A stretch of DNA of 64,000 nucleotides from an uncultured Hyphomicrobiales bacterium (lineage in GTDB: Bacteria > Pseudomonadota > Alphaproteobacteria > Rhizobiales > Xanthobacteraceae), in contig CAIRGJ010000064.1 of the NCBI GenBank assembly GCA_903878085.1, positions 62,001 through 126,000 on the forward strand, given 5' to 3'. A program made the translations under genes and the position numbers. Shown in pieces: positions 47,558 to 58,861 of this stretch. Within the stretch, counting starts at the first letter, position 1, and the number at the start of each line of letters is the position of its first letter. The notes beneath the pieces are model-generated. The model made no database searches. It was not told where the DNA came from and was given only the letters and a program-made list of their open reading frames with translations.

Positions 47558-48043
47558 TTACTGCGCCGGACGAAGCAGAAGTTCGGAGACGCCGACCGCA
47601 AGGTTGAGGCCCGTCTGCCCCTGCACCGATACCGGCTGCAAGGCGACGGTGCGGTTCGAGCCGCCGACCAGCACGTTGGCGCCGAGGCCTGCGCCGACCG
47701 TCACTTCGGCGCTGCCGCCGGCGTAATTACCGGCCAGCGCGCCGAAATGCTTGTTGCTGGGCGCAAACACCGACCAGATCATCTCGCCGCCTGAAGTGGC
47801 GCCGACATCGAGGCCGAATTTGCTGATCGCGCCGGTATAGACCTCGCGCGGGCCGGGCTGCGCCGGGGTGAACATGCAAGCTATGGCTTTCTTCGACGTG
47901 ATGATCAGGCCGATGCCGCCGGAAATGTCGCAGGTCAGTGTACCGACTTTGGCGCGGTTCGGAGCCTGCGCCATGCTCGCGGCCGGCAGAAAAACTGCGG
48001 CAGCAACCGCCACGACAGCGAATGCGGTCAAAGTCCTACGCAT
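47558..48043 (-). CDS. DUF992 family secreted protein
   Basis: A 161-aa protein with a signal peptide (VVAVAAAVFLPAASMAQ) and a DUF992 domain: VGTLTCDISGGIGLIITSKKAIACMFTP, with two Cys that may form a disulfide, and YTGAISKFGLDVGATSGGEMIWSVFAP. It is a periplasmic or outer-surface beta-rich protein common in Rhizobiales; the function is unknown. ATG 48043 opens the signal peptide. A terminator follows the gene. No EcfG motif is seen in front of it. Confidence 0.9.
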   Translation of the reverse strand: MRRTLTAFAVVAVAAAVFLPAASMAQAPNRAKVGTLTCDISGGIGLIITSKKAIACMFTPAQPGPREVYTGAISKFGLDVGATSGGEMIWSVFAPSNKHFGALAGNYAGGSAEVTVGAGLGANVLVGGSNRTVALQPVSVQGQTGLNLAVGVSELLLRPAQ

Positions 48044-48130
48044 GAAACACTCCTAATTCGCCGAATAATTGCCAAATAACGCCGCCCCGCACAACGGGGT
48101 TCTCGTGGCGGCCCTGCCCTAAAGGCGTAT

Positions 48131-48433
48131 TCAGCCGACGCAGCTGCGGGCGAAATTGGCGCGTGCTGAAGCCGCCAAGGGGCTAAACGCCGGCTCGCAA
48201 CCGGTCAACACAGTGGGACCGCGCGGCGGCTCGGGCTGGCGCTTGCCGATTGTCGTGACGGGAATCCGGTCGCCTTTATTCGTGCGATTGACCGACTGAA
48301 GGGCCGCGTCGCCATTAAATACCGCCGGCGACGCACCAACCCGCGCAAAGCCAAGCAGGATCGGGGCCGAAACCATATCCAAGGCAAGCACCACCAGGAG
48401 GCCTGCCATGAGATATGACGCAAAGCCGCGCAT
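48131..48433 (-). CDS. Small exported protein of unknown function, EcfG-promoter driven
   Basis: A 100-aa protein with an N-terminal hydrophobic segment (YLMAGLLVVLALDMVSA), probably a signal anchor or signal peptide, and a C-terminal module LTGCEPAFSPLAASARANFARSCVG with two Cys. I recall similar CEPAFSP...ARAN..RC ends in small Bradyrhizobium-type proteins of unknown function. GGAG lies about 8 bases before the ATG, and an exact general stress promoter motif lies 27 bases before it, so it is probably induced by stress. It is downstream of the HWE kinase on the same strand. Confidence 0.75.
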   Translation of the reverse strand: MRGFASYLMAGLLVVLALDMVSAPILLGFARVGASPAVFNGDAALQSVNRTNKGDRIPVTTIGKRQPEPPRGPTVLTGCEPAFSPLAASARANFARSCVG

Positions 48434-48460
48434 CGCCCGTCTCCGTGGATACGAGGAGGA

Positions 48461-48485
48461 AACGGCGAAAAGCGATATTAGTTCC
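48461..48485 (-). promoter_or_regulatory. EcfG-type general stress promoter for the 100-aa protein
   Basis: Read on the minus strand the sequence is GGAAC-N16-CGTT (plus strand AACG at 48461, GTTCC at 48481). This matches the EcfG/RpoE2 consensus exactly. It lies in the short gap between the HWE kinase stop and the small gene, with the -10 element 27 bases from the ATG. Confidence 0.85.
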
Positions 48486-48493
48486 TCACACCT

Positions 48494-49588
48494 TCAGGGG
48501 GTCGCAAGTATCTGGCTTGCAGGAATGACGACCCGGCAATGAAGCCCTTCGGGTTCGAACGCCAAATTCACCTCGGCATCGAGTGCGTGGGCGAGGTTGC
48601 GCTCAATCACCATGCTGCCGAAGCCGGTCTTGCGCCGCGCCTTCACTTTGGGGCCGCCTTGCTCGCGCCAATCCAGTTCGACCGCGGGACCGTCGGCGGT
48701 TTCGCGTTGGCCCCAGGTGATCGAGACGCGGCCTGTCGGCACCGACAGCGCACCGAACTTCTCGGCATTGACGGCCAGTTCATGCAACGCCAGACCGAGA
48801 TTTTGCGCAGCTTCCGGCTTGAGTGCGATGGATGGTCCTTCGATCGCCACCTGCTCGGCGCCGGGTTCGATATGGCCGGCGAGTTGCGACCGGATCAGTT
48901 CGCCCAATGATGCGCCATGCCAACTCTCGCGCACCAGCAAATCGTGCGATGCGGCCAACGCCTGCAAACGCGCACCGAACTGGGTAAGAAAGGCCTCGAC
49001 CGAGCCGGCGTGTCTCGCCGTCTGCCGCGCCATGCCCTGGATCACCGCCAGCAGATTTTTCGAGCGGTGCGTGAGTTCCCGCAGCAACAGACGCAGATGC
49101 GCCTCGCCCTCTTTGCGCTCTGTCACGTCAATCGACGCGCAGGTAATACCGACGATATCGCCAGATTCGCTCCGCAACGGCTCGACATGCAGGTCGCACC
49201 ACCGCGCGTGATGCGGACCGTCAGCGCCGTCAAAACAGACCTCGGCGCGCGTCGGATGTCCGGCCGAAAGCGCCTCACGCTTGAGCGCGATGATGGTGGC
49301 GCCGCTGTCGGACGCGAATAACTCTTCGTCTGTGCGTCCGAGAATTTCGTCGATCGAGCGGCCGAACATCGGATTACTCAAGGACGTGTAACGGAGATCG
49401 CGGTCCTGCGTATAAACGGTCACTTTTGAACCGCGTAGCGCGGTCTCGTAGCGCGCAAACCGCGCGCGCAACAAATTCAGCTCCCACGCTTGCGCGTTCA
49501 GCTGGCCTTCGAGCCACCGGCATTCTTCTTGGGCGTTATCGTACGCGACTTGAAGCTTTGCCGCCTCTGGATCGTCTTTGTCCGGCAT
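48494..49588 (-). CDS. PAS-HWE sensor histidine kinase, cytosolic
   Basis: A 364-aa kinase with no membrane segment. Residues 1-48 are a probable coiled coil, about 50-160 a PAS domain (VYTQDRDLRYTSLSNPMFG) with a PAC end VTERK, and about 165-364 the HWE kinase. The phosphoacceptor is His174 in ELTHRSKNLLAVIQGMARQT. The HWE hallmarks are the His in LHELAVNAEKFGAL and WRE in ELDWREQGGP. ATG 49588 has TAGGA about 8 bases upstream. HWE kinases commonly feed PhyR in alphaproteobacteria. This one lies between two EcfG-promoter units and 4.5 kb from phyR, and no other response regulator is adjacent. Confidence 0.92.
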   Translation of the reverse strand: MPDKDDPEAAKLQVAYDNAQEECRWLEGQLNAQAWELNLLRARFARYETALRGSKVTVYTQDRDLRYTSLSNPMFGRSIDEILGRTDEELFASDSGATIIALKREALSAGHPTRAEVCFDGADGPHHARWCDLHVEPLRSESGDIVGITCASIDVTERKEGEAHLRLLLRELTHRSKNLLAVIQGMARQTARHAGSVEAFLTQFGARLQALAASHDLLVRESWHGASLGELIRSQLAGHIEPGAEQVAIEGPSIALKPEAAQNLGLALHELAVNAEKFGALSVPTGRVSITWGQRETADGPAVELDWREQGGPKVKARRKTGFGSMVIERNLAHALDAEVNLAFEPEGLHCRVVIPASQILATP

Positions 49589-49685
49589 GTCGCATCCTAC
49601 GGCAGTGCAGCGATAAAGCGGGGTTCTTGACGCGGCCCGGAGCGTTCGCTGCGGCGACATAATTCATATGGCTGCAGAATGGCTT

Positions 49686-49710
49686 AACGCGGCCCGCGAT
49701 GATCCGTTCA
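49686..49710 (-). promoter_or_regulatory. Near-consensus EcfG promoter in front of the HWE kinase gene
   Basis: On the minus strand it reads TGAAC-N16-CGTT, one base from the EcfG consensus, with correct spacing, about 98 bases upstream of the kinase ATG. It is weaker evidence than the exact sites. Confidence 0.4.
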
Positions 49711-49735
49711 TCCGGTACCGCATTCTCTTACGATT

Positions 49736-49760
49736 GGAACTTTTGTCGCCAGGGCACGTT
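49736..49760 (+). promoter_or_regulatory. EcfG-type general stress promoter for the DUF883 pair
   Basis: GGAAC at 49736, 16 bases, then CGTT at 49757: an exact consensus. It lies 45 bases before the ATG of the DUF883-like gene and faces away from the HWE kinase. Confidence 0.87.
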
Positions 49761-49805
49761 GCCGAATGAGCTTTTATAGCAAAATCCAAGGCTCAAGGGA
49801 GATTC

Positions 49806-50153
49806 ATGGCCACGCGCAGTGCTAAATCCGCGGCCGCCGACGAAATCGCGGCGATCGAAGACCTGATGAGCGATCTGGAGAAACGGCTGCGCCGGCTATC
49901 CGGTAGCGCCAAGCGCGAGGCATCGGGCGCAAGCGGAGACGTCGGTGACTTCGTCAGCGAGGCGCTCGCCCGCATCATGGCACGCGTGCGCGATAGCGCG
50001 TCGGATACCACCGAATCCGTCGCGGATGACATGGCAGGTTATGGCATCGACGCGATCAAGAAACTGACCCGCGAGGTCGAACAGCGCCCGCTGATGATGC
50101 TGGGTATCGCCGCCGGGATTGGGTTTCTCGCGGCCATGTTGAACAAGAAGTAG
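49806..50153 (+). CDS. DUF883/ElaB-YqjD-like membrane-anchored protein
   Basis: A 115-aa protein with an amphipathic helical N-terminal part (IAAIEDLMSDLEKRLRRL) and a C-terminal membrane anchor MMLGIAAGIGFLAAMLNKK, the layout of ElaB/YqjD proteins, which associate with ribosomes at the inner membrane in stationary-phase E. coli. An exact EcfG promoter motif precedes it, so stress or stationary induction is likely. The next gene begins 4 bases after its stop and is probably co-expressed. Confidence 0.83.
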   Translation: MATRSAKSAAADEIAAIEDLMSDLEKRLRRLSGSAKREASGASGDVGDFVSEALARIMARVRDSASDTTESVADDMAGYGIDAIKKLTREVEQRPLMMLGIAAGIGFLAAMLNKK

Positions 50154-50157
50154 CGCC

Positions 50158-50517
50158 ATGAGCCTCGCCAACATGGCCGCATTGGCAACCGAGCGTCTGG
50201 TCGGCGTGCTGTTGTGGCGCGTGCTGCTCGCGCTTCTGACGGCGCTGTTCGCCCTTGCCGCGCTCTACCATTTCACCGTTGCCGGCACGCTGGCGCTCGA
50301 ATTGCAATTCGGTGCGCTTTATGCCCGCCTGATCGTCGGCGAGATTTACGCCGCGCTGATGTTCATGAGTTTCGGCGTGTTATGGGCGATGGGCCGCAAG
50401 ACCGCTCCGGCAGCGCCGGACGCAACGCCCTCCGGACGCGCCATGCAGCTTGCGGCGCTGATCGAAGCCGTGATGCTGGGCTATTCGCTGTCCCGCAAAG
50501 GCGACAAAGCCTCGTAA
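50158..50517 (+). CDS. Small inner-membrane protein paired with the DUF883 protein
   Basis: A 119-aa protein with two strong membrane segments (VLLALLTALFALAALYHFTV and LIVGEIYAALMFMSFGVLWAM) and a short C-terminal soluble part (MQLAALIEAVMLGYSLSRKG). The gene starts 4 bases after the DUF883 stop, so it belongs to the EcfG-driven unit. E. coli pairs YqjD with membrane protein YqjE in a comparable way, but sequence relation is not claimed. Function unknown. Confidence 0.75.
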   Translation: MSLANMAALATERLVGVLLWRVLLALLTALFALAALYHFTVAGTLALELQFGALYARLIVGEIYAALMFMSFGVLWAMGRKTAPAAPDATPSGRAMQLAALIEAVMLGYSLSRKGDKAS

Positions 50518-50614: not shown

Positions 50615-51631
50615 ATGAATTACGGCCTCGGCGTCTATGCGCCCGCATTGGCAATCAGCCTGGCGCTTGCAACGGGATCCGCGCGCCCAGCCCGCGCCGA
50701 GGTAAACGAAATCGTCGTCGCCCAGCAATATGGCGTCAGCTTCATCCCGTTGATGCTGATGGAAAAGGAGAGCCTGGTCGAAAAGCACGCCGCGCAGGCG
50801 GGCTTGACCGGATTGAAGGTGACCTGGGCCAAGGTAGCCGGTCCGAGCGTCATGAACGACGGCCTGATCGCCAACGCCATCCACTTCGCGGCACAAGGTG
50901 CGCCGTCGCTGATCACGCTATGGGACAAGACCCACGGCCAGATCAAAGGCGTCTCAGCGATGACGACTTATCCGCTCTATCTCGTCACCCGCGACCCTGC
51001 CGTTAAATCCATCGCCGATTTCAGCGACAAGGATAAAATCGCCGTACCCTCGGTGAAAATTTCGACCCAGGCCATCATGCTGCAGATGGCGGCGGCCAAG
51101 GCCTTCGGCGAGAAGGACTACGCGAAACTCGATCCGCTGACGATCTCGCTGTCGCACCCGGACGCGACGCTGGCCTTCATCGGCAACACCGCGGGCGTCA
51201 ATGCGCATTTCTCGACCTCGCCGTTCTACGAACAGGAAATCAAGGTGCCGGGCGCACACCTGATCACCACCAGTTATGAAATCCTCGGCGGCCCGGCGAC
51301 CGCGCTGGTGCTGACGGCGAGCACCAAATTTCGCGAGGCCAATCCCAAAGCTTACAAAGCGCTTTACGATGCGCTCGGCGAGGCGATCGCGACGGTCAAC
51401 AAGGACAAGCGCACCGCGGCGAAGCTGTATCTCGAGGTCGCGAGAGACACCAAGAACTCGGTGGACGACATTCTGGCCGTTATCAGCGACAAGGATTATG
51501 CCTTCACCTTGCAGCCGCAAAAAGTATTGGCGACCGCGCAGTTCATGGCCAAGATCGGCTCGATCAAACAGGCCCCGGCGTCGATCGACGACTTGTTCTT
51601 CCCCGAGGGCAAAGGGCTGAACGGCGATTGA
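50615..51631 (+). CDS. ABC transporter substrate-binding protein (NMT1/SsuA-like)
   Basis: A 338-aa periplasmic protein with a signal peptide ending SARPARAE, then VNEIVVAQQYGVSFIPLMLMEKESLVEKHA, the opening of nitrate/sulfonate/taurine-type binding proteins (NMT1-like). VPSVKISTQAIMLQMAAAK and AHFSTSPFYEQEIK belong to the ligand cleft. No permease or ATPase is present in the window. GGGGAGAG is 5 bases before the ATG. It leads a three-gene unit with the AtuA-type genes, suggesting uptake of a substrate handled by them. Confidence 0.88.
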   Translation: MNYGLGVYAPALAISLALATGSARPARAEVNEIVVAQQYGVSFIPLMLMEKESLVEKHAAQAGLTGLKVTWAKVAGPSVMNDGLIANAIHFAAQGAPSLITLWDKTHGQIKGVSAMTTYPLYLVTRDPAVKSIADFSDKDKIAVPSVKISTQAIMLQMAAAKAFGEKDYAKLDPLTISLSHPDATLAFIGNTAGVNAHFSTSPFYEQEIKVPGAHLITTSYEILGGPATALVLTASTKFREANPKAYKALYDALGEAIATVNKDKRTAAKLYLEVARDTKNSVDDILAVISDKDYAFTLQPQKVLATAQFMAKIGSIKQAPASIDDLFFPEGKGLNGD

Positions 51632-51655
51632 GCACGGCCCCTGGGACCCATCGCT

Positions 51656-52990
51656 ATGAACAAGCCAGCGTTTCGCATCGGCACCGGCGCCGGCTTTTCC
51701 GCCGACCGTCTTGAACCGGCGGTCGACCTCGCCAAACGGGGCGCGCTCGACGTGCTGGTGCTGGAATGTCTTGGCGAGCGCACCGTGGCCTTCGCGCATC
51801 GCGATCGCATGGCAGACCCGCGCCGCGGCTATAATTCGCTGCTCGAGCGGCGCATGCGGGCGCTGCTGCCCGCCTGCCGCGCCGCCGGCACCACAATCAT
51901 CACCAACATGGGTGCGGCCAACCCGCGCGCCGCCGCCGAACGCACGCTGGCGATTGCCCGCGAGCTCGGCCTTACCGGACTGAAGATCGCCTGCATCGAG
52001 GGCGACGACCTCACCGCAACCGGCCCGCGTGACGCGGCGATGATGGACGAACCGGGCCGGCTCAGTGACGTCGATATGCCGATTGTCGGCATGAACGTCT
52101 ATCTCGGCGTCGACGCCATCCTCCCTGCCCTGCAGGCCGGCGCCGACGTCATCATCGGCGGGCGGCTGGCCGATCCATCGATGTATCTGGCGCCGCTGAT
52201 GCACCGCTTCGGTTGGGTCGACACCGCCCTGCTCGGCGCCGGTTCGCTGGTCGGTCATCTAATGGAATGCGGCATGCAGATCACCGGCGGTTATTTCGCC
52301 GACCCGGGCGTCAAGGATGTGCCCGATCTGGCCAATTGCGGTTATCCCATTGCCGAGGTTGCGGCCGACGGCAGCGCGGTCATCACCAAGCTTCCCGGCA
52401 CCGGCGGCTGCGTGACGACGGCGACGGTGAAAGAGCAGTTGCTCTACGAGGTGCACGATCCGGCGGCGTACCTCACGCCCGACGTGACTGCGGATTTCAG
52501 CGGCGTGAACGTCGAAAGCGTAGGACCGGACCGTGTTCGCGTCTCGAACGCGAGCGGCCGTGCTCGCCCGGAGCGGCTAAAGGTCACGGTTGGATTTGAC
52601 GCAGGTTTTCACGCCGAAGCCGGCGTCAGCTACGCAGGACCTACGGCGATCGAACGCGGACGGCTGGCCTGCGATATCGTGCGGCAGCGGCTCGAGCAGG
52701 TCCACGGCATAGCCGATGGTCTTCGTGTCGATTTGATCGGCGCCAGTTCGCTGTTTGCGACCGCTCGCCAATATCCGGCCGATACCCAGGATGTGCGCGT
52801 CCATGTCGCGCTGCGAGCACGCAATAAGAGCGTGGCGGAAACGATGCTGTGGGAAGTGGAATCGCTGCTCTGCTGCGGTCCCGCCGGCGGTGGCGGTTTT
52901 CGCGGCGCCATCACGCCCGCCGTGATGACGAAATCGATCCTGATCGACCGCGAGCATGTCACGCCCCACGTTGAGGTGCTAATCGCATGA
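51656..52990 (+). CDS. AtuA family (DUF1446) protein, main domain
   Basis: A 444-aa cytosolic protein with FRIGTGAGFSADRLEPAVDLAKRGALDVLVLECLGERT at the N-terminus, ITNMGAANPRAAAE and GGRLADPSMYLAPL, all typical of the AtuA/DUF1446 family named after acyclic terpene utilisation in Pseudomonas. There the protein acts with acyl-CoA enzymes on citronellol/geraniol breakdown, but the family is broad. No other atu genes (carboxylase, acyl-CoA dehydrogenase) are nearby. The C-terminal partner domain is encoded by the next gene, which overlaps by 4 bases. Confidence 0.87.
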   Translation: MNKPAFRIGTGAGFSADRLEPAVDLAKRGALDVLVLECLGERTVAFAHRDRMADPRRGYNSLLERRMRALLPACRAAGTTIITNMGAANPRAAAERTLAIARELGLTGLKIACIEGDDLTATGPRDAAMMDEPGRLSDVDMPIVGMNVYLGVDAILPALQAGADVIIGGRLADPSMYLAPLMHRFGWVDTALLGAGSLVGHLMECGMQITGGYFADPGVKDVPDLANCGYPIAEVAADGSAVITKLPGTGGCVTTATVKEQLLYEVHDPAAYLTPDVTADFSGVNVESVGPDRVRVSNASGRARPERLKVTVGFDAGFHAEAGVSYAGPTAIERGRLACDIVRQRLEQVHGIADGLRVDLIGASSLFATARQYPADTQDVRVHVALRARNKSVAETMLWEVESLLCCGPAGGGGFRGAITPAVMTKSILIDREHVTPHVEVLIA

Positions 52991-53331
52991 CGATGCCAAG
53001 ACACAACGAGCAACGAATTGTGCGCGATATCGCCCACGCGCGGGCCGGCGACAAAGGCAATACTTCGAACGTCAACGTCTGGGTCTATGACCAGGCCGAC
53101 TTTGACCTATTGAAGCGCAGCCTGACCGCCGAGCGCGTCAAGCAGGCGTTCCCCACACTCATTCAAGGCGAGGTAACGCGATACGCCCTCGACCATCTCG
53201 GCGGATTGAATTTCGTTTTGCGCGACGCGCTCGAAGGCGGCGTCAACTCATCGCTCAATCTGGACTCGCACGGCAAGTCGTGGAGCTATTTGATTTTGGG
53301 AGTGGCGTTGGTTGAAGGCGATGAGAGATAG
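52987..53331 (+). CDS. AtuA C-terminal-type domain protein (separate subunit)
   Basis: A 114-aa protein corresponding to the C-terminal domain of AtuA: IVRDIAHARAGDKGNTSNVNVWVYD and ALEGGVNSSLNLDSHGKSWSYLIL. The ATG overlaps the stop of the main-domain gene (GCATGA), so the two are produced together and probably form a complex. A split AtuA is seen in many bacteria. It likely ends the operon; no terminator is obvious in the 205 bases that follow. Confidence 0.87.
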   Translation: MTMPRHNEQRIVRDIAHARAGDKGNTSNVNVWVYDQADFDLLKRSLTAERVKQAFPTLIQGEVTRYALDHLGGLNFVLRDALEGGVNSSLNLDSHGKSWSYLILGVALVEGDER

Positions 53332-53536
53332 ACCAAACAGTAGCGCTCGCATGTATGCTGAACAATATCGATAAGATTGGCAACGTTATAATCACGCCAG
53401 ACTTTGCATCGATCGGTACGGTCGTGAGGTCGCCGACACCGGCCTGCACAAGCGAACTATCCGTTAACGCTGGCGGCCTAAGTATCGGCATGGTGGCCTT
53501 TCAATTTTACGCGGGCCTCCCCCTAAAGCGAGCACC

Positions 53537-53947
53537 ATGGCCTCTCGCCTATCAAACCGCCGCTGGCTCCTGCGCGACATCCCGCGAACCGGTGTCCTGT
53601 TCGTCTGGACGGCGTTCGCCGTCAGTATTCTGATTTATTTCGTCGATTTGGCGCCGGTCTGGCGCGACATAATGGCGAGGTTACACTTGGGCGGCGTAGT
53701 AAGCCGCGCGGCGATCGCCGCACCCGATTCTGGCAATGATAAACTTTATACGGGCTCGATTATCTTCGTTCCCTCGCGCGGCGACCGATGCCAGGAATGG
53801 GCTATCGACAATCGCACCGGAGGGATGTCGGACAGGGGCTACGTCAGTTGCTACGGCGTGGCGGCCACGGCGAATTTGCCGGACGGAGGAGTCGGTGCTC
53901 AACGGATGCGGGCCATCGGCAAGGCCTTTCTCCACGAAAAGGATTGA
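53537..53947 (+). CDS. Small membrane-anchored protein, function unknown
   Basis: A 136-aa protein with one membrane segment (TGVLFVWTAFAVSILIYFVDLAPVW, about residues 18-42) and a soluble part with GSIIFVPSRGDRCQEWAIDNRTGGMSDRGYVSCY. The short beta-rich module with the CxxW..DN.TG pattern looks familiar from small Rhizobiales membrane proteins of unknown function. The start at ATG 53537 has only a weak ribosome binding site. It is convergent with phyR, whose terminator lies between them. Confidence 0.6.
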   Translation: MASRLSNRRWLLRDIPRTGVLFVWTAFAVSILIYFVDLAPVWRDIMARLHLGGVVSRAAIAAPDSGNDKLYTGSIIFVPSRGDRCQEWAIDNRTGGMSDRGYVSCYGVAATANLPDGGVGAQRMRAIGKAFLHEKD

Positions 53948-54057: not shown

Positions 54058-54858
54058 TCAGCTCGCCCTTCGCTCGCGCCGCTTGGCGTTACGTTCGAAG
54101 AACAACGCCTGGCTCAGCACCGCCGACACCGTCGCCGGCTGGAACGGTTTGGCGATCAGGAAGGCGGGCTCCGGCCGCTCGCCGGTGAGGAAGCGTTCCG
54201 GATAGGCGGTGATGAAGATCACCGGCACCTCGAAAGTGCGTAGCATCTCGTTCACCGCGTCGAGGCCCGAACTGCCGTCGGCCAATTGAATGTCGGCCAG
54301 GATAATCCCCGGCCGCTTCACCTTGGACAACGCAATTGCCTCAGCGTGGGTGCGCGCCACGCCGAGCACCTTGTGGCCGAGACCTTCCACCAAGCCCTCG
54401 AGATCGAGCGCGATGAAAGTCTCGTCCTCGATGATCAGCACGTCGGTGGCAATCTCGGCGGCGAGTTCGCGGCCCGACTGCTCGACCAGGTTGCGCAGTT
54501 TCGGAACGTCGATATCGAGTACTTTGGCGGCGTCGTCCTCCGACAGCCCCTCCAGCGCGACGAGCAGGAAGGCCTGCCGGGGTAGCGGCGCGATCTGAGC
54601 CAGATGCCGCTCAACCGGCTGGTTCGGGTCAAGATCGCCAGCCTTGTTGTTCACGGCCACCGAATTCCAGATCTTGGTGAACAGTTGATACAGGCCGATC
54701 CGGGTCGAAGAGGTGCTGTCGAGGACCTTGGGGTCCTGGATCAGGGCCTCCAACGTGGCCGCCACGTAGGCGTCGCCAGAGGCCTGGCTGCCCGAAAGCG
54801 CCCGCGCGTAGCGGCGCAAGTACGGCAGATGTTGCGCAACTGATTGAGATGTCGACAA
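54058..54858 (-). CDS. phyR: General stress response regulator PhyR (anti-anti-sigma factor)
   Basis: A 266-aa protein with an ECF sigma-like N-terminal domain (about 1-130, VAQHLPYLRRYARALSGSQ ...) and a C-terminal receiver domain with phosphoacceptor Asp189 in IILADIQLADGSSG. When phosphorylated, PhyR exposes its sigma-like part, binds NepR and frees EcfG. The start is a TTG at 54858: GGGAGG lies a few bases upstream and translation gives M-STSQSVAQHLPYL, the N-terminus known for PhyR; the only upstream ATG-type start in the ORF track would add 78 unrelated residues. It diverges from nepR-ecfG and has its own exact EcfG promoter. Confidence 0.95.
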   Translation of the reverse strand: MSTSQSVAQHLPYLRRYARALSGSQASGDAYVAATLEALIQDPKVLDSTSSTRIGLYQLFTKIWNSVAVNNKAGDLDPNQPVERHLAQIAPLPRQAFLLVALEGLSEDDAAKVLDIDVPKLRNLVEQSGRELAAEIATDVLIIEDETFIALDLEGLVEGLGHKVLGVARTHAEAIALSKVKRPGIILADIQLADGSSGLDAVNEMLRTFEVPVIFITAYPERFLTGERPEPAFLIAKPFQPATVSAVLSQALFFERNAKRRERRAS

Positions 54859-54937: not shown

Positions 54938-54962
54938 AACGTGGCTCCGGGAAAAAAGTTCC
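54938..54962 (-). promoter_or_regulatory. EcfG-type promoter of phyR
   Basis: On the minus strand: GGAAC, 16 bases, CGTT (plus strand AACG at 54938 and GTTCC at 54958). The match is exact. The -10 element is 79 bases before the TTG start, which makes phyR a target of the sigma factor it activates. Confidence 0.88.
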
Positions 54963-54970
54963 CTATCTGT

Positions 54971-54995
54971 GGAACCATCTGCCACCCCAACGGTT
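54971..54995 (+). promoter_or_regulatory. EcfG-type promoter of nepR-ecfG (one mismatch)
   Basis: GGAAC at 54971, 16 bases, then GGTT instead of CGTT. It points toward nepR, with 60 bases from the -10 element to the ATG. It lies 8 bases from the phyR -35 element, back to back. Autoregulation of this operon is usual in the family. Confidence 0.7.
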
Positions 54996-55055: not shown

Positions 55056-55280
55056 ATGAACGAACGCAAACCCGTCGGACAAGAAAAACCAATGGAAACC
55101 CCGGAAACGACCAACAAAAAAGGCGACGCCAAGCCGGGCAAGCTAGGGCGCGATGTCCAGGCCCGCCTCGGCCAGCAACTCCGCGCCATGTACGACGACG
55201 TCGTCAATCAGGGCGTTCCAGACCGGTTTGCCGAACTGCTCAATCGTCTCGAAAACAATGGGAACAAGGACAAACACTAA
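55056..55280 (+). CDS. nepR: NepR anti-sigma factor
   Basis: A 74-aa protein whose core LGQQLRAMYDDVVNQGVPDRFAELLNRLE is the conserved two-helix NepR segment; the N-terminal 40 residues are disordered and Lys-rich. NepR binds EcfG and is titrated by phosphorylated PhyR. The ATG at 55056 lacks a strong ribosome binding site; a second Met lies at codon 13. Its stop overlaps the ecfG start (TAATG), so sigma and anti-sigma are translationally coupled. Confidence 0.93.
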   Translation: MNERKPVGQEKPMETPETTNKKGDAKPGKLGRDVQARLGQQLRAMYDDVVNQGVPDRFAELLNRLENNGNKDKH

Positions 55281-55828
55281 TGCCCATGGACGAGTCGGTA
55301 CGCAAAGCGATCCTGGGTGCCGTACCCAGTCTCCGCGCTTTCGCAATCTCGCTGTGCGGGAACGTGGATCGTGCTGACGACCTGGTACAGGAGACGATGT
55401 TACGTGCACTCGCCAATATCGACTCGTTCCAGCCCGGCACCAATATGCCGGCATGGCTGTTCACCATCCTGCGCAACCATTTCCGCTCGGAGTATCGCAA
55501 ACGCCGGCGCGAGGTCGAGGATACTGACGGTCATTATGCTGACTCGCTGAAGTCGCAACCCGAGCAGCACGGCCAAGTTGAATTCCGTGAATTCAAGGAA
55601 GCACTGACGCATTTGCCATCGGACCAGCGTGAGGCGCTCATCCTGGTCGGGGCGTCCGGCTTCTCCTACGAAGAAGCGGCCAATATTTGCGGCTGCGCTG
55701 TCGGCACCATTAAATCGCGCGTCAATCGCGCGCGCACCAGGCTTGCCGAATTGCTCTCGATTGACGGTGTCAACGACTTCGGCCCCGACGAGCAAACCCG
55801 CGCGGTGTTGGCGGGCGGCGGGGAATAA
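55280..55828 (+). CDS. ecfG: General stress ECF sigma factor EcfG
   Basis: A 182-aa ECF15-type sigma factor. Region 2 has LRAFAISLCGNVDRADDLVQETMLRAL and FQPGTNMPAWLFTILRNHFRSEYRKR; region 4 has LPSDQREALILVGASGFSYEEAANICGCAVGTIKSRVNRAR. It directs transcription from GGAAC-N16-CGTT promoters. ATG 55280 shares its A with the nepR stop and has AAGGA about 9 bases upstream; a second ATG two codons in is possible. The NepR-EcfG-PhyR set is complete and apparently intact. Confidence 0.96.
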   Translation: MPMDESVRKAILGAVPSLRAFAISLCGNVDRADDLVQETMLRALANIDSFQPGTNMPAWLFTILRNHFRSEYRKRRREVEDTDGHYADSLKSQPEQHGQVEFREFKEALTHLPSDQREALILVGASGFSYEEAANICGCAVGTIKSRVNRARTRLAELLSIDGVNDFGPDEQTRAVLAGGGE

Positions 55829-58836: not shown

Positions 58837-58861
58837 AACGGCTGGAACCCGCAAATGTTCC
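58837..58861 (-). promoter_or_regulatory. EcfG-type general stress promoter of the glycine-zipper gene
   Basis: On the minus strand: GGAAC, 16 bases, CGTT (plus strand AACG at 58837, GTTCC at 58857). It is an exact match, 82 bases before the ATG. A plus-strand GGAAC overlaps it but has GTT one base too close, so it is not called. Confidence 0.87.

Follow-up and report, generated by a model that had tools for sequence, protein, structure and literature searches.

The kinase locus and its neighbours

The window analysed here, a stretch of 64,000 nucleotides, carries a gene for a histidine kinase set among small exported and membrane proteins, and, on the far side of an inserted metabolic block, the genes of a PhyR-NepR-EcfG switch. 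The features on which our argument draws are given below, the promoters being predictions.

47558..48043, minus strand: DUF992 exported protein, the next gene of the module (PF06186, 171 bits)
48078..48103, minus strand: degenerate EcfG site before DUF992, AGAAC-N17-CGTT
48131..48433, minus strand: 100-aa exported protein, an open reading frame conserved in 10 genomes of the genus
48461..48485, minus strand: exact GGAAC-N16-CGTT, promoter of the 100-aa exported protein (GGAACTAATATCGCTTTTCGCCGTT), 28 nt before the ATG at 48433
48494..49588, minus strand: PAS-HWE histidine kinase, 364 aa, cytosolic
49686..49710, minus strand: TGAAC-N16-CGTT, EcfG-like kinase promoter with a sub-consensus -35 (TGAACGGATCATCGCGGGCCGCGTT)
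49736..49760, plus strand: exact GGAAC-N16-CGTT, promoter of the DUF883-like pair (GGAACTTTTGTCGCCAGGGCACGTT), before the ATG at 49806
49806..50153, plus strand: DUF883-like glycine-zipper membrane protein, assigned by a weak PF19029 match and by orthologs
50158..50517, plus strand: 119-aa membrane protein, second of the pair, with orthologs 40-55% identical
50615..53947, plus strand: inserted block encoding an NMT1-like binding protein, AtuA, an AtuA ferredoxin-like protein and a 136-aa protein
54058..54858, minus strand: PhyR, with a TTG start (NF006623, 364 bits; PF22029; PF22233; Response_reg)
54938..54962, minus strand: exact GGAAC-N16-CGTT, phyR promoter
54971..54995, plus strand: GGAAC-N16-GGTT, nepR-ecfG promoter, read from the sequence
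55056..55280, plus strand: NepR anti-sigma factor (PF18557, 58 bits)
55280..55828, plus strand: EcfG sigma factor (NF009192)

The cytosolic PAS-HWE kinase recognised at 48494-49588 in a first-pass annotation was borne out by profile searches, in which the product scored 94.3 bits against PF07536 (HWE_HK), above the curated cut-off of 22.8, and revealed one Pfam PAS_4 domain (50 bits). Its H-box, RELTHRSKNLLAVIQG, contains HRSKN, as befits an HRXXN kinase, and the residues which define the HWE class, namely the histidine of the N-box (LALHELAVNA) and the W-x-E of LDWREQGGP, are kept across orthologs, which are 54-80% identical within the genus. The N- and G-boxes are intact both in the ortholog alignment and in alignment to Brucella LovHK (PDB 6ph4, 5epv), the closest solved structure to the DHp and catalytic domains (E 1e-40). 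A blue-light (LOV) histidine kinase was rejected, as the product reaches 178 bits against the model NF052306, for which the cut-off is 450, and the NCRFLQ motif is absent from its sequence. Nor does the protein show the membrane anchor and degenerate ATPase domain of PhyP/PhyT-type phosphatases: by inspection, it has no evident transmembrane segment and retains intact ATPase motifs.

The flanking proteins are less readily classified. The 100-aa exported protein, marked by the motif V-D/N-RT-x-KGDR ... GCD/E-P-x-FS ... RC, matched no family in the profile search and is present in single copy, with no paralogs in the genome; going by sequence, it is a candidate output of the general stress response (GSR). 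Of what had been described as a DUF883 membrane pair, the first member bears a weak, sub-threshold resemblance to PF19029 (19.1 bits against a cut-off of 27, E=0.001), and the profile search assigned no family to the 119-aa second member. A search of the literature returned nothing tying DUF883 to PhyR or EcfG and, for DUF992, one unrelated paper only.

EcfG is the only one of its type in the genome: a second was considered and rejected, the next ECF sigma factor being of a different type, 40% identical and located beside a different, anti-sigma-like gene. The genome further encodes four other HWE kinases and one protein with a HisKA_2-only match. An orphan response regulator made up of a single domain and carrying the motif PFVFVSGYG (L131, 1489-1857, minus strand; G000 C33) is the genome's nearest relative of the PhyR receiver, at 31% identity, and is a candidate MrrA/SdrG-like relay protein.

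EcfG-type sites and their conservation

The first-pass annotation had placed exact GGAAC-N16-CGTT sites on both flanks of the kinase and a TGAAC-N16-CGTT in front of it, and all three are present at the positions listed above; the -10 of the kinase site lies about 98 nt before the ATG at 49588. To these we add the nepR-ecfG site, DUF992 as a further member and an ancestral adjacency to phyR, discussed below. The kinase site fits the published EcfG consensus, GAAC-N16,17-C/GGTT (PMC4814048). Elsewhere in the window, the gene for a small, glycine-zipper-like exported protein has a further exact GGAAC-N16-CGTT (58837-58861, minus strand) about 83 bp ahead of its ATG (about 58754), and genes for a 47-aa membrane protein and a DUF3309-like peptide are nearby; these genes are possible further EcfG targets.

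Motif counts were rejected as stand-alone evidence because, over the whole window and the whole genome, they are barely or not above chance. The window holds 5 exact matches against 2.2 expected, a number reached in 9 of 100 shuffles, and the genome holds 62 matches against 130 for a reversed control pattern. The three exact N16 matches within 8 kb, where 0.07 are expected, correspond to a Poisson p of about 5e-5. Positional conservation in relatives is the strong and deciding evidence for the sites. An exact site occurs at the same place before the exported protein in 9 of the 10 genomes holding the gene, before the DUF883-like gene in 7 of 9 (with at most one mismatch in 9 of 9), before phyR in 15 of 16 and before DUF992 in 17 of 23, while GGAAC-N16-(G/A)GTT precedes nepR in 15 of 15. 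Shuffled sequences yielded mean counts of exact sites of 0.01-0.04 for the exported protein, DUF883 and phyR, and of 0.01-0.08 over all. The units flanking the kinase accordingly have, at a conserved upstream distance, the GAAC/GGAAC-N16,17-(C/G)GTT of EcfG regulon members. In other genera of the family, an exact site lies within 200 bp past the kinase stop in 13 of 19 loci.

The kinase itself follows a different pattern. An N16 site one base off GGAAC/CGTT precedes it in 15 of 25 genus genomes (500 shuffles: mean 0.87, maximum 5), with no near-consensus site in the other 10 and a perfect GGAAC in none of the 25. CGTT is always kept in the near-consensus sites, and the mismatch invariably falls within the leading GG, save at one extra site in L040, giving TGAAC, CGAAC, GCAAC and GAAAC across the genus. 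The sites of 7 of the 25 genomes, that of the window included, match the published GAAC consensus in full. Perfect sites precede 48 of 58 outputs versus no kinases, a contrast which the Fisher p of about 2e-9 overstates because the genomes are related. Outside the genus, a perfect GGAAC-N17-CGTT precedes the phyR-locus kinases of L143 (G092, another genus of the family) and L108 (G059, another family of the order), and several others have one mismatch. At L039, L040, L041 and L043, a conserved TTGACA...GTTCAT-like pair is situated downstream of the EcfG-like site and may constitute a second, housekeeping promoter of the kinase.

Linkage to phyR and the role of the kinase

That no response regulator adjoins the kinase and that phyR lies 4.5 kb away, as the first-pass annotation had it, is accurate for the window, in which 4.47 kb separate the kinase start from phyR. 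This gap is secondary, because it reflects the inserted AtuA-type block, 3.3 kb in length, which stands between the two genes only here and in the closest relative (G009/L073). As reconstructed from 1.5 kb flanks and longer stretches around the kinase, the order in the genus, which is probably Pseudolabrys, is EcfG-NepR, PhyR, (119-aa and DUF883-like proteins, divergent), kinase, (100-aa exported protein), DUF992; some lineages are without the DUF883 pair and the exported protein, and phyR and the kinase are then directly adjacent. A check for conservation in related genomes, which had been proposed alongside the annotation, found phyR beside the kinase, in the same orientation, in 24 of 25 genus genomes (22 with phyR next to it or with the DUF883 pair alone between, 2 with the AtuA block) and, where the family's other genera offered enough sequence, in 17 of 18 loci, G088 being the exception. 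Within the family, 76 of 299 genomes and 13 of 41 genera have an ortholog of the kinase, and HWE kinases are often encoded close to phyR in several other families of the order. The kinase is without phyR in the stretch covered in G011 (L066/L074) and G088 (L132); in the former, the match to the DUF883-like gene is confined to its first 32 residues. The genomic linkage that marks HRXXN kinases controlling PhyR is hence present, interrupted in the window by the inserted block. In a tree of 36 kinase cores, the window kinase does not group with the four further HWE kinases of its genome, and its own group (support 95/89) comprises 22 rows, of which 19 have phyR as a neighbour; adjacency to phyR requires seven changes on this tree and is therefore not the property of one clade.

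Given the adjacency to phyR, the conserved sites, the tree and the likeness to LovHK, which phosphorylates PhyR in vitro (PMC4438053), sequence comparison makes it highly probable that this is the phyR-locus HWE (HRXXN) kinase of its lineage, controlling PhyR from inside the regulon which it triggers. Adjacency, sites and tree thus support the earlier proposal of a general-stress input kinase embedded in its own output. Several findings count against this reading: 10 of 25 genomes are without a near-consensus kinase site, the kinase -35 departs from GGAAC, no phyR accompanies the kinase in the stretches covered in G011 and G088, and the four other HWE kinases, the HisKA_2-only match and the orphan regulator could form a relay. 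By analogy, moreover, 'input kinase' may not be the sole possible role, as phyR-locus HWE proteins elsewhere are a phosphotransferase or proposed phosphatases.

Under the preferred reading, the PAS domain would sense a cytosolic cue and control phosphorylation of PhyR; PhyR~P, as is established for the family, binds NepR and frees EcfG (PMC8103513; PMC5898713). EcfG would in turn transcribe phyR, nepR-ecfG, the DUF883-like pair, the 100-aa exported protein and usually DUF992, as well as, via a weaker site, the kinase, whose place inside the regulon would produce positive feedback. The sense of this loop is the weakest step, because PhyK is a phosphotransferase, PhyP is a proposed phosphatase and an orphan single-domain regulator is present here.

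In a rival reading, with Sphingomonas PhyP or S. meliloti RsiC as the model, the protein would serve mainly as a PhyR phosphatase or as a bifunctional brake. Induction by EcfG would then amount to negative feedback, and a position inside the regulon suits a brake too. A study by Sauviac and Bruand from 2014 is said to assign such a phosphatase or bifunctional role to a phyR-locus HRXXN protein. Both roles have been proposed for proteins of this kind, Sphingomonas PhyP among the presumed phosphatases (PMC5898713). PhyP, however, is membrane-anchored with a degenerate ATPase domain, whereas the window kinase is soluble, and its N-box (LHELAVNA) and G-boxes are intact across orthologs and align with those of the active LovHK, so that we judge a brake rather unlikely.

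Alternatively, signals from other HWE/HisKA_2 kinases could pass through the single-domain regulator to the kinase, acting as a phosphotransferase, and on to PhyR, as in the MrrA-PhyK-PhyR relay of Caulobacter, where PhyK serves as phosphotransferase for MrrA despite a conserved CA domain (PMC5964349). The genome offers the parts for such a relay in the L131 regulator and several other HWE/HisKA_2 kinases. The sensor of PhyK is putatively periplasmic, though, while the PAS domain of the window kinase is cytosolic, as in direct kinases such as LovHK, and the modest identity of the L131 regulator to the PhyR receiver also weighs against a relay, which seems to us improbable.

Returning to the kinase as the regulon-embedded controller of PhyR, we tentatively suggest, as a possibility we hold to be doubtful, that its EcfG promoter is deliberately weak, with the -10 and spacing kept as at the outputs and the GG of the -35 always broken. 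Feedback would then be limited through the sensor and strong through phyR and nepR-ecfG. If this holds, a weak kinase promoter would count as a design rule conserved among general-stress switches. This systematic weakening is the sole mildly new point of our analysis, not found in the open papers searched. The same -35, never GGAAC in 25 genomes, could instead signify that another ECF sigma factor, of which the genome has further examples, reads the TGAAC, CGAAC or GCAAC-N16-CGTT before the kinase, placing it outside its own output. This too is unlikely, since 7 of the 25 sites fit the EcfG consensus fully, the spacing and -10 are those of EcfG sites, and perfect sites do precede two kinases beyond the genus. 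That the kinase is an ordinary orphan sensor, among EcfG targets by accident and partnered with another regulator, draws on the lack of an adjacent regulator in the window alone and on motif counts near chance, and is very improbable in view of phyR adjacency in 41 of 43 testable family loci, the tree placement and the conserved sites.

Relation to known general-stress systems

A general-stress input is thereby probably fixed for a genus, likely Pseudolabrys, on which our search found no general-stress paper, and four candidate output genes are named, all without known function. The promoter strengths of the sensor and the switch genes offer a clean comparative case for limits on positive feedback in a sigma-factor partner switch. 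Systems of this kind are not new, a regulon-embedded phyR-locus kinase having a precedent in Caulobacter. HRXXN kinases are usually found near phyR-nepR-ecfG, the switch genes of which are autoregulated (review PMC8103513), and the present locus resembles alphaproteobacterial loci of this kind in that nepR-ecfG diverges from phyR, both have EcfG-type promoters and an HRXXN kinase is nearby. What sets it apart from typical phyR loci is the metabolic block inserted in the window, together with a conserved block that also takes in DUF992, the 100-aa exported protein and the DUF883-like pair, all with EcfG sites of their own.

With Brucella LovHK, the window kinase shares a cytosolic PAS-type sensor and related DHp and catalytic domains but not the LOV photosensor, and lovhk, unlike the window kinase as predicted here, is reportedly not regulated by the sigma factor (PMC4438053). 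Sphingomonas PhyP and PhyT are likewise HRXXN proteins at the phyR locus, yet they are membrane-anchored with a degenerate ATPase domain, where the window kinase is soluble and intact. A regulatory parallel is offered by Caulobacter phyK and lovK, general-stress kinase-family genes upregulated by the EcfG-type sigma factor (PMC5964349), as is predicted for the window kinase; PhyK and LovK act as phosphotransferases, a role which for the window kinase figures only among the rival readings.
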